A stretch of DNA of 64,000 bases, taken from contig JABFSN010000122.1 in NCBI GenBank assembly GCA_013140575.1, positions 1 to 64,000 on the forward strand, written 5' to 3'. Origin of the DNA: Phycisphaerales bacterium. GTDB taxonomy: Bacteria > Planctomycetota > Phycisphaerae > UBA1845. The notes under the pieces were generated by a model, which searched no databases, had not been told where the DNA came from, and saw nothing but the letters and a program-made list of their open reading frames with translations. Each line of letters starts with the position of its first letter. Position 1 is the first letter of the stretch. A program made the position numbers and the translations under genes. Below are positions 1-46,511 of this stretch, piece after piece.

Positions 1-297
1 CGCTTGCCCGTGTCTTCATGCGGTCCGCTTACACGTCGATTTCCACGACCGCACTCCGACACCACGGACAACGGAGTACCGTTGTCCGTGCCACCCGCCG
101 ATCACGATGCCGTAGGAACATCCGCCGCCGGGCTTGTCGGCGTCCGTCGGGTGGCACGGGCAAGCGTACTCGCTTGCCCGTGTCTTCATGCGGTCCGCTT
201 ACACGTCGATTTCCACGACCGCACTCCGACACCACGGACAACGGAGTACCGTTGTCCGTGCCACCCGCCGATCACGATGCCGTAGGAACATCCGCCG
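1..297. repeat. Tandem 170-bp duplication carrying a double-hairpin repeat
   Basis: Bases 1-127 recur identically at 171-297, a 170-bp period. The unit holds a double-hairpin element complete at 149-266: it opens with GGGTGGCACGGGC, forms a hairpin around CAAGCG-TACT-CGCTTG, has a spacer of about 50 bases, then a second hairpin around CAACGG-AGTA-CCGTTG, and closes with CGTGCCACCC. The first copy is cut by the window edge. The same core recurs at 34178-34529 and 46334-46511, but here no CTAG-type terminal inverted repeats are visible. The duplicated segment runs into the 3' end of the mechanosensitive channel gene, whose stop codon (272-274) lies inside the second copy. Confidence 0.9.
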
Positions 298-32260: not shown

Positions 32261-32332
32261 AGCCGACGATGGGAATCGAACCCACAACCCCGGCTTTACG
32301 AAAGCCGTGCTCTACCGTTGAGCTACGTCGGC
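32261..32332 (-). tRNA. tRNA-Thr (CGT)
   Basis: Read on the minus strand: a 7-bp acceptor stem GCCGACG / CGTCGGC, D arm AGCTCAACGGTAGAGC, anticodon stem CGGCT / AGCCG enclosing loop TTCGTAA (anticodon CGT, threonine codon ACG), and T arm with GGTTCGATTCC. The discriminator base is U. The 3' CCA is not encoded. Stems are fully paired. It is 72 bases long and stands alone. Confidence 0.95.
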
Positions 32333-33132
32333 GACCGCCGCCCGATCGATAGGATCGGGCGCGCCATATTCTACGCCATCGCCCGTAAAATCAACATCGG
32401 CCGGCGGTGGTCAGGGTGCATCCCAAATAGTGTGGCAAAAACCTGGTTGCCCACGGCGGTCTCAATGTGGCACGGGCGTCTCCCCCGTGATGTTACTGTG
32501 GCACGGGCGTCTCGCCCGTGATGTTTTCGAATCAACTCTCCACTCCACCTCGTTTGCAGCTCCCAATAGGATGAACACGCCGCGACCACCCTGCTTCGCG
32601 AAGATGCGTATCCGGCATGCGCTTCCGCCCCGGCGGGGCGGCGGACTGTAGCCACGGGTGGAGCGAGGCGCAGCATCGCGCAACCCGTGGATTCGGTTCC
32701 GCATGAAATCCCGCCCCGGCAGGGGCGGAGGAGCCGCCGGAATCGCTCAGCACCTACCCCCGCCCGGGCGACTTCGTGTGCAGCGCGGCGCGAATTATCC
32801 AATGGCCCCACCCTGAATGGGATGCACCCATCGGTTGCAGTCCCCGAACCAGCCGCGCTCCATCGCTTGCCGCACCACGGCGCGGACCCTACCATCCAAC
32901 CGACCAACCATGGCGCTGGTGATTTGGTCGTGGGTAGCGTTGCGAACCCTGAATCACAGCCGCGGGCGCAAGCCCGCGGACGCTGAAAACGCGGGCCACC
33001 TTGCGCATTCCAATCGCCGGGCGTGCGCTCGGGGCGCTGAAACGGCTGGAATACGCTGGACACATACGCCGATTTGGACCGGTGCATCAACTTAATCTGC
33101 CAATCGGTCCTACCGTCATCGATCCTCCCCGG
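32333..33132. other. Intergenic region of about 800 bases before the D12 methylase
   Basis: Contains two copies of GTGGCACGGGCGTCTC(C/G)CCCGTGATGTT (32469 and 32501), a GCCCCGGCGGGGCGG / CCGCCCCGGCAGGGGCGG set (32630-32730), an ACGGGTGGAGCGAGG ... CAACCCGTGG hairpin and GCCGCGGGCGCAAGCCCGCGG (32959-32979). On the minus strand about 50 codons near 32800-32970 read RVRNATHDQITSAMVGRLDG without a clear start; this may be a gene remnant but no family was recognised. Confidence 0.5.
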
Positions 33133-34152
33133 ATGCCGCCCACCCGTTTTCAGGGCAGCAAACGCAAACTGGCCGGCTGGATCGTCGGGCAAATCGCCGG
33201 GCTGCATTTCGACACCGTTCTCGATGCGTTCGGCGGCACGGGGGCGGTCGCGTTTGAATTCAAGCGCCTCGGAAAATGCGTCGCCTACAACGACCTGCTG
33301 CGGTTCAACCATTGGATCGGCACGGCCATCATTGAAAACGGGACCGACCGCCTGACCCGCGCCGACATCGACGCCGTCCGCACCATCGACCCGTCGCGGA
33401 CCTACGACGATCTGATCGCCCGGACCTTCGCCGACATCTACTTCACCGACGACGAAAACCGGTGGCTGGACGTCGCGGTCCAGAACATTTCCGCCATGTC
33501 AAACCGCCGCCGCCAGGCATTGGCCTGCTACGCATTGTTCCAGTCCGCGCTGGCCAAGCGCCCCTACAACCTGTTTCACCGCCGCAATCTGTACATGCGC
33601 AGCGCGAACGTGACCCGCACGTTCGGAAACAAGGTCACCTGGGATCGGCCCTTCGACCTGCATTTCCGGCGCTTCGCCGAACAGGCCAACGCCTGCGTCT
33701 TCGACAACGGCCGGCCGTGCCGCGCGCTGAATAGGGATGCGTGCGACGTGCCCGGTTCGTTCGACCTGGTCTACATCGACCCGCCCTATGTCAACGCCCG
33801 CGGTACCGGCGTCGACTATCACCACTTCTACCATTTTCTCGAGGGGCTGGTGGACTATCCCCGATGGGCCGAACGGATTGATTACGCATCGCGGCACCGC
33901 CGGCTGTTGCCCATGGAATCACCCTGGACGTCGCCCTCGACAATTCACGCCGCCTTCCGCCGCGTGTTCGAGCGCTTCGCCGATTCCATCCTCGTGGTGT
34001 CCTATCGCAGCGACGGCGTTCCGACCATCGACGAATTGCAGGCGATGCTGAAACGGTGCAAGCGCGATGTTCGGGTCATCGAGCACGCCCGCTACCAATA
34101 CGTGCTCTCCACCAATCGCCGTTCGCACGAGGTGCTCCTGATCGGATGTTAG
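33133..34152 (+). CDS. DNA adenine methylase, D12 class (N6)
   Basis: A 339-residue SAM-dependent methyltransferase. The ATG at 33133 starts MPPTRFQGSKRKLAGWI, where FQGSK is the family's N-terminal SAM motif. Then come DAFGGTGAVAFEFK (motif I), DIYFTDDENRWLD, FDLVYIDPPYVNARG (catalytic DPPY, motif IV) and a C-terminal VVSYRSDGVPT. The alpha-class order (motif I before IV) matches Dam/M.DpnII-like enzymes. No endonuclease gene lies next to it, so it may be solitary or part of a split system. Preceded by 800 bases of repeats and followed by the tandem inverted-repeat elements. Confidence 0.93.
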   Translation: MPPTRFQGSKRKLAGWIVGQIAGLHFDTVLDAFGGTGAVAFEFKRLGKCVAYNDLLRFNHWIGTAIIENGTDRLTRADIDAVRTIDPSRTYDDLIARTFADIYFTDDENRWLDVAVQNISAMSNRRRQALACYALFQSALAKRPYNLFHRRNLYMRSANVTRTFGNKVTWDRPFDLHFRRFAEQANACVFDNGRPCRALNRDACDVPGSFDLVYIDPPYVNARGTGVDYHHFYHFLEGLVDYPRWAERIDYASRHRRLLPMESPWTSPSTIHAAFRRVFERFADSILVVSYRSDGVPTIDELQAMLKRCKRDVRVIEHARYQYVLSTNRRSHEVLLIGC

Positions 34153-34177: not shown

Positions 34178-34355
34178 CTAGTGTTCCGTCGCAGCTAATG
34201 AATCGGGTCGGGTGGCACGGACAACGGTACTCCGTTGTCCGTGTGAAACTCGCCAGCGCGTCGAAATCGCAGTCGAGGCCGAAAGTCGGAGACCACGGGC
34301 AAGCGAGTACGCTTGCCCGTGCCACCCCGAAAAATTAGGTGTGACGGAACACTAG
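34178..34355 (+). mobile_element. 178-bp MITE-like element, copy A
   Basis: Bounded by CTAGTGTTCCGTCGCAG at the left and GTGACGGAACACTAG at the right, near-perfect terminal inverted repeats ending in CTAG. Inside are two hairpins (CACGGACAACGG-TACT-CCGTTGTCCGTG near 34215 and CACGGGCAAGCG-AGTA-CGCTTGCCCGTG near 34293) separated by a spacer with GAAATCGCAGTCGA. It has no coding capacity of its own. It shares its right CTAG with copy B. Any transposase acting on it is not in the window. Confidence 0.85.
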
Positions 34356-34529
34356 TGTTGTGACGCAGATTAAGTTTCGGGTCGGGTGGCACGAACAACG
34401 GTACTCCGTTGTCCGTGTGAAACCCGCCAGCGCGTTGAAATCGCAGTCGAAGCCTAAAGTCGGAGATCACGGGCAATCGAGTACGCTTGCCCGTGCCACC
34501 CCGAAAAATTAGGTGTGACGGAACACTAG
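34352..34529 (+). mobile_element. 178-bp MITE-like element, copy B (tandem with A)
   Basis: Begins at the CTAG that ends copy A (period 174 bases) and ends GACGGAACACTAG at 34529. Internal hairpins and spacer match copy A with about 15-20 substitutions by eye; the left end reads CTAGTGTTGTGACGCAG. The two copies have diverged, so the tandem state is not very recent. Confidence 0.85.
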
Positions 34530-34636
34530 GACGCGAGAAGCGGCGCCGACAATCTCCGGGCGTTCTAACCCTCACCCTGCCCTCTCCCTGGAAGGGAGAG
34601 GGGTTTTGAGACGTAGCCTGGTACTAAAACGCTTCC

Positions 34637-34682: not shown

Positions 34683-34788
34683 CCCTTCCCAGCTCCGGAG
34701 CCCCGGAGAACCCTTCCCAGCCCCGGAGCCCCGGAGGGCCCTTCCCAGCCCCGGAGCCCCGGAGGGCCCTTCCCAGCCCCGAAGGGGC
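34683..34788 (+). repeat. 28-bp tandem repeat, about 3.8 units
   Basis: Units start CCCTTCCCAGCCCCGGAGCC at 34683, 34711, 34739 and 34767; the last is incomplete and turns into CCCCGAAGGGGCGG. Units 2 and 3 are identical. It sits inside the segment that separates the two parts of the dispersed repeat at 31947-32050, as if inserted or expanded there. Confidence 0.85.
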
Positions 34789-35353
34789 GGCAGTCAATAG
34801 CCGGGGGTGTCGTCCGCGACAGCGGACGACACCCCCGGAATCATCCCCTACGCAAATACCAGCCCCAGCGGGGCGAAAGCAGGGATGGCAGGACTCGTGT
34901 TCACGGCATTGCATTACCGTAGGGCGGGTTTCACCCGCCGTCGCATGGTGCCGTTCCGCCGGGCAAACGGCGGGTGAAATCCGCCCTACCACTGAAGCCA
35001 CCGCTTGCGTGATTGGGTGATCACGACATTGCAATCGGCTGATCTGTTACGGGACTTTTTCCGACATGAACCCGCAGAAACGCAGCCGATGCCGGTGCCA
35101 CGCCCGAATGCGACAGCAACCCACGCCTCATCAATTGATCATTTCCCGCGCCCCCGTTCGATCTACGCCCATCTGCAGCACCTGCGACCATCCTCCGCGG
35201 CGGCCTTCGCCGGCACGCTTGTATTCGACCCCCCCCCCGGCTTGTCGGACACCTGGTTTTCGCCGAAACTAACCCGTGTCGCGGCAGCGGGAACGTGCGT
35301 TCGGCCGGTTCGTTCGGGCCCGCCGGGTTTTGCCCGGGAGGTGACCGCCTGCC
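34789..35353. other. Intergenic repeats and unassigned sequence
   Basis: Holds a hairpin CCGGGGGTGTCGTCCGC / GCGGACGACACCCCCGG (34803-34842), a second AGCCCCAGCGGGGC, and the paired arms GTAGGGCGGGTTTCACCC ... GAAATCCGCCCTAC at 34919-34989. From 35000 to 35353 no gene is supported; a run of nine C occurs near 35230. Confidence 0.55.
34919..34989. repeat. Inverted repeat GTAGGGCGGGTTTCACCCG ... CGGGTGAAATCCGCCCTAC
   Basis: A long perfect-looking stem with one mismatch encloses about 33 bases. The arms match those at 9026-9133 and the single arm at 20739. Confidence 0.8.
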
Positions 35354-46333: not shown

Positions 46334-46511
46334 CTAGTGCTCGATCGCAGCCAGTTCTTCAGGGTGGCACGGGCAAGCGTACTCGCTTGCCCGTGGTCTC
46401 CGACTTTCGGGTTCGACTGCGATTTCAACGCGCCGGCCGGTCGCACCCGGACAACGGAGTACCGTTGTCCGTGCCACCCAACCCCAAATATGAGCTGCGT
46501 CAGAACACTGG
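46334..46511 (-). mobile_element. 178-bp MITE-like element, copy C
   Basis: An inverted copy of the elements at 34178 and 34352: CTAGTGCTCGATCGCAG at the left, AGCTGCGTCAGAACACTGG at the right, both hairpins conserved, and the same spacer (GCGATTTCAACGCG on this strand). Length is exactly 178 bases as in copy A. The right terminal inverted repeat overlaps the first seven codons of the lipoprotein gene starting at 46490. Confidence 0.82.

Follow-up and report, generated by a model that had tools for sequence, protein, structure and literature searches.

A 178-bp CTAG-bounded repeat of a Phycisphaerales bacterium as a probable IS630-family MITE with REPIN-like cargo

What are the short CTAG-bounded repeats on contig JABFSN010000122.1 of a Phycisphaerales bacterium, what moves them, and where do the hairpins in their interior come from? 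The window analyzed here is the stretch of 64,000 nucleotides at positions 1 to 64,000 of this contig, which belongs to a draft assembly of 5.05 Mb in 268 contigs (GCA_013140575.1). It contains three copies of the repeat (Table 1). As described in the initial annotation, copies A and B each measure 178 bp, with CTAG-bounded inverted ends, two hairpins and a spacer, and share one CTAG; copy C is of equal length. The end repeats of copy A (~30 bp) are 83% complementary, and both A and B comprise two 12-bp stems (with a single mismatch in one stem of B) and a spacer of ~50 nt. Copy C is oriented opposite to A and B and has one decayed edge, with CTGG instead of CTAG. The end motif is matched six times in the window versus 0.55 times expected, a number reached in none of 100 shuffles, while ten hairpin matches are present versus 0.03 expected. 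Folded as single-stranded DNA, copy B has a z-score of -4.8. That the element has no ORF of its own can be maintained in a qualified form: mechanical ORFs do cross A and B (e.g., 34195-34575 on the minus strand), but they run through repeat units and look spurious. The element corresponds to no described RNA family, as an Rfam search of the window returned a tRNA as the sole match. A DNA methyltransferase gene (33001-34152; PADLOC MTase_II, 2.7e-52) ends 26 bp before copy A, and a tRNA-Thr (CGT) gene on the minus strand (32261-32332), near the methyltransferase gene and copies A and B, may mark an island boundary. Just downstream of copy B, at 34690-34790, lies a short direct tandem repeat with a unit of ~33 bp (ccttcccagccccggagccccggag...).

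Table 1. Copies of the 178-bp element and associated features in the window.
Feature	Position	Strand	Remarks
MITE copy A	34178..34355	+	178 bp; mosaic: left end family-2-like, spacer family-1-like
MITE copy B	34352..34529	+	178 bp; family 1
MITE copy C	46334..46511	-	178 bp; older copy with 85% identity to B; CCAG at its decayed left edge
CTAG common to A and B	34352..34355	.	putative TA target (C-TA-G) of the tandem-forming insertion
Copy A left terminal repeat	34178..34207	+	about 30 bp; IS630-type end
Copy A right terminal repeat	34326..34355	-	
Copy A REP-like hairpin type a	34211..34243	+	GGTGG + CACGGACAACGG-TACT-CCGTTGTCCGTG
Copy A REP-like hairpin type g	34294..34326	-	inverted versus type a; GGTGG + CACGGGCAAGCG-TACT-CGCTTGCCCGTG
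Copy B REP-like hairpin type a	34385..34417	+	1 mismatch
Copy B REP-like hairpin type g	34468..34500	-	1 mismatch
Copy C REP-like hairpin type g	46363..46395	+	
Copy C REP-like hairpin type a	46446..46478	-	
Hairpins outside CTAG ends	63..265	.	type a 63-95 (-); doublet g 150-182 (+) / a 233-265 (-)

Across the genome, at least 42 copies carry a recognizable family spacer, in addition to two fragments at contig ends. This number is a minimum, as 40 out of 152 candidates were scored and the tallies stem from searches and individual loci. The equal length of the copies in the window extends genome-wide (177-179 bp in ~42 copies): 32 of 40 family copies measure 178 bp and the other eight 177 bp, and two further copies reach 179 bp. 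The flanks of dispersed copies are unrelated and the ends constant. With ends and length consistent throughout the genome, the proposal of a discrete, mobilized, non-autonomous element holds. Three spacer families can be discerned, families 2 and 3 being more diverged than family 1. In ten family-1 copies, just one to four of 178 positions depart from the subfamily consensus, which points to a recent expansion. Mosaics in which the left end of one family is joined to the body of another are represented by copy A and by copies on C192 and C9 (73522). Several contigs end inside or near copies, as is expected for a repeat in a draft assembly. Half-elements were also observed (C8:4028, C264:56375 and C224), which retain the right end but lack the left one, the break lying just outside hairpin a. 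The whole element was sought first in 59 relatives and subsequently in 397 genomes of its class, this genome included; the other genomes yielded only hairpins or single ends.

The CTAG boundaries are informative, because CTAG is scarce. In 116 kb of sequence that was not chosen for MITEs (window included), 24 sites occur, versus 387 expected from base composition (~16-fold rarer) and 71 from a Markov model; within the window, about one in three CTAG sites marks an edge of the 178-bp MITE. The initial annotation had suggested a search for target duplications at CTAG. Among the 24 copies in which both edges have TA, 20 show C-TA...TA-G on both sides; the remaining four show a one-sided change only, always in the outer base with TA intact. 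This edge pattern agrees with TA as the target of IS630-family elements, CTAG being best read as C-TA-G, and we infer a duplication of TA as opposed to a CTAG that belongs to the element. The IS630-family element ISY100 inserts at TA, which is duplicated (PMC2170065), and IS630 prefers TA in CTAG (Tenzen and Ohtsubo 1991, as cited in PMC2170065). Joining the flanks of copies revealed long frames and no convincing gene disruption; consequently, relatives provided no unoccupied site.

Tandems with one common CTAG are not limited to A/B. On C134, a family-1 copy lies beside a family-2 copy in this way, and on C58 the 178-bp MITE shares its CTAG with a different MITE family; on C171, an apparent tandem consists of a decayed copy with a new one at its end. 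Insertion of one element at the end of another and unequal exchange had both been put forward for A/B. Since the partners on C58 are unlike, which makes unequal exchange between like elements impossible, insertion into the bounding CTAG is the better reading, and unequal exchange was set aside as the origin of A/B. With some 1,000 CTAG sites in a genome and about 100 MITE edges, chance alone is estimated to produce a few tandems, so that no special attraction has to be invoked.

The initial annotation established no relation to a known insertion sequence (IS); this can now be replaced by an assignment to IS630. A profile search of the genome for DDE_3 (PF13358) gave one place only, C42:56820-57275. 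The gene is enclosed by an inverted pair, CTAGTGTTGCGTC...GACGGGACACTAG, in an IS of 1,267 bp (C42:56674-57940), of which the 30-bp CTAGTG... ends match those of the MITE; how many copies of this IS exist is uncertain in a draft assembly in 268 pieces. Beyond CTAG, 20 out of 26 positions are equal between the IS and MITE ends, whereas CTAG sites of the window that do not belong to the copies reach 10 out of 26 at best. Terminal repeats of the same type thus enclose a transposase gene in this genome. The IS has two ORFs: ORF A (165 amino acids) contains a helix-turn-helix and matches the N-terminal part of the IS630 transposase profile NF033545 with a score below the cut-off, and ORF B (234 amino acids) contains the DDE domain and reaches 135.7 bits against the same profile (cut-off 100). 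In ORF B, CMDET, VMDNLNTH and HGSWLNMAEIE comprise what we take, on the basis of the sequence and of what is generally known about the family, to be the DDE residues. The two ORFs overlap at CTCAAAAAAACGAG, and a -1 slip at this point would make them continuous; -1 frameshifting at this A7 may yield a fused transposase. Homologous ISs occur in many phyla, with ends that mostly read C followed by a TAGTGNTCCGTCA-like sequence. In a genome from another genus of the same family (G030), the ends of an IS630 element likewise match those of a MITE, which has a different interior. In the genome studied here, the resemblance to the IS is confined to the ends of the MITE and its interior is unlike the IS, so the MITE is no simple deletion derivative. 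The matching ends around a transposase gene, along with the unrelated flanks, exact ends, dispersed near-identical copies and heterologous C58 tandem, make it hardly credible that the repeats are hairpins under host selection (e.g., terminators) whose number grew through recombination or unequal exchange instead of transposition, even though their strong stems with compensatory changes, and the lack of a clearly interrupted gene among the loci, would suit such an origin.

The initial annotation missed that the hairpins are REP-like repeats that are also present outside the element. The pattern GGTGGCACGGRCAASSGTACTCSSTTGYCCGTG has 211 matches in the genome, versus none for the reversed control, and many of these hairpins, which carry the tag GTGG, lack CTAG ends. 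Among the loci examined, 65 inverted doublets were found, each comprising one a and one g hairpin and spanning 113-118 nt. Over 12 variants from this and related genomes, both sides of the stem change in seven out of 12 base pairs, with all cells paired. Positions 1-300 of the window consist of a ~170-bp tandem repeat made of the REP doublet with a different spacer, and the doublet at 150-265 recurs with its flanks beside a REP-associated tyrosine transposase (RAYT) gene on C164 (9077-9712, minus strand; NF047646, 84.6 bits, cut-off 80). As this near-identical repeat ends C164 just after the RAYT gene, C164 and the contig of the window may be neighbors. The C164 gene has GTGG hairpins on both sides, the sole such case among eight Y1 transposase matches, and in relatives several RAYT homologs lie between hairpins of their own, tagged GGGTGG or GGGTGC. 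The hairpin pair of the MITE is therefore a REPIN-like doublet inside an IS630-type MITE.

The direction of this association deserves attention, as the hairpins may have arisen within the MITE, in which case doublets devoid of terminal repeats would be old copies with decayed ends. Remnants of end symmetry at the appropriate distance are indeed visible around diverged doublets on C83, C193, C140 and C199 (10-11 out of 17 positions), and intermediate families with altered ends exist (copies on C194). Nonetheless, end symmetry is absent in many doublets, and relatives in which the MITE was not found have the same hairpin class, in some cases beside RAYTs. Neutral decay would moreover hit the hairpins equally, yet across 23 diverged doublets that lack the family spacer, pairwise identity amounts to 97% for the hairpins, 40% for the spacer and ~35% for the flanks, a contrast that is partly due to ascertainment since the doublets were located by their hairpins. 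We consider an origin within the MITE improbable and favor the capture of a doublet by the MITE.

The same type of ends also encloses other hairpins. A second MITE family of 174 bp in this genome (C69:1105-1278, C154, C71:35665, C9:57607, C58:42369 and others) has CTAG-bounded ends of the same type and different, GC-rich hairpins (CCGGGGGCTGACGCCCCCGGCTA), which also occur on both sides of an IS200/IS605-type transposase gene on C128. In a genome of another genus (G016), a 142-bp MITE bounded by CTAG is present in more than 40 copies, several of them in close tandem. Its ends are identical to the family-2 right end at 28 out of 30 positions (manual count), and its different interior is REP-like (GGGTGGCATG...). 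A hairpin similar to this interior occurs in G030 without the G016-type ends, and one further junction of an end and a hairpin was observed in G095. IS630-type ends around REP-type hairpins thus recur with at least three cargoes, which may reflect either repeated capture or one old composite with exchanged cargo. This recurrence bears on the view that the element is merely a large REPIN/BIME moved by the RAYT, its CTAG ends being hitch-hiking flanks without a role. The hairpins do far outnumber the CTAG element and flank the RAYT gene. However, mere flanks would not be expected to keep a constant spacing in about 40 copies, to match the ends of an IS630 IS, or to recur in another genus with different hairpins and in this genome with a second cargo; in addition, no core of family 1, 2 or 3 was seen that had left both ends behind. 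We therefore regard a role for the RAYT alone as very improbable.

We conclude, with a probability of roughly 87%, that the element is an IS630-family MITE mobilized by the C42 transposase and carrying captured REPIN-like cargo linked to the C164 RAYT. The DDE transposase of C42 would bind and cut the ~30-bp MITE ends (CTAGTGTTCCGTCRCA..TAA...TTCGGG) and thereby mobilize the MITE in trans, by cut-and-paste insertion at the TA of CTAG with a presumed TA duplication. The A/B tandem would have formed by insertion of one copy into a CTAG at the edge of the other. The interior, which is not derived from this IS, would be an inverted doublet of REP-like palindromes (GGTGG and a 12-bp stem with a TACT loop) drawn from the ~211 genomic hairpins that appear to belong with the C164 RAYT. 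A pre-existing REPIN was likely captured in this way and would ride along as the IS630 ends spread it. A more elaborate possibility is that two engines act on the element: the IS630 DDE transposase would move it as double-stranded DNA via its ends, and the RAYT would cleave or copy the REP doublet as single-stranded DNA. Such dual action would account for the recurrence of hairpins of different Y1 transposases inside IS630-type ends; we deem it unlikely and offer it tentatively.

Compared to known systems, the element resembles MITEs of the IS630/Tc1-mariner family (IS630, ISY100) in that its terminal inverted repeats are shared with a DDE_3/IS630 element of the same genome, and in its probable insertion at TA (here almost always CTAG), size below 300 bp, non-coding nature and multiple copies. 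It differs in its interior, which is a REP-type hairpin doublet and not the remnant of an internally deleted IS. With REPINs/BIMEs and their RAYT (TnpA-REP), it shares the inverted doublet of palindromes with a short conserved tag before each, high copy number, compensatory changes and a RAYT gene flanked by the same palindromes. Here, however, the tag is GTGG (usually GTAG), the stems measure 12 bp, and many copies lie within IS630-type ends and apparently move as part thereof. A GTAG-tagged REP super-family has been reported in Planctomycetes and Verrucomicrobia, with GTGG in the majority of the GTAG-20 elements of O. terrae (PMC3733652). These are likewise tagged palindromes; IS630 does not appear in the text of that paper, and the sections consulted describe no enclosure in such ends. 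MITEPsy1 of Pseudomonas syringae (100 bp) is another small bacterial MITE that inserts at CTAG (or YTAA), with a 4-nt duplication; it is thought to derive from ISPsy2 (tabulated as IS5?), and no REP cargo is described for it in the sections consulted (PMC3189936). A literature search for composites of an IS630 MITE and a REP, with most subscription journals outside its scope, found no description.

How REPs and REPINs spread is an open question, and their spread is usually credited to RAYTs alone. In the genome studied here, two different Y1-transposase genes are flanked by hairpins that are also present inside IS630-type ends of high-copy elements, and in another genus a further hairpin type is enclosed in this way. 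If our inference holds, an unrelated DDE transposon would constitute a second vehicle for REPIN spread, and REP copy numbers could not be read as RAYT activity alone. The composite system is small and can be tested in a laboratory host.
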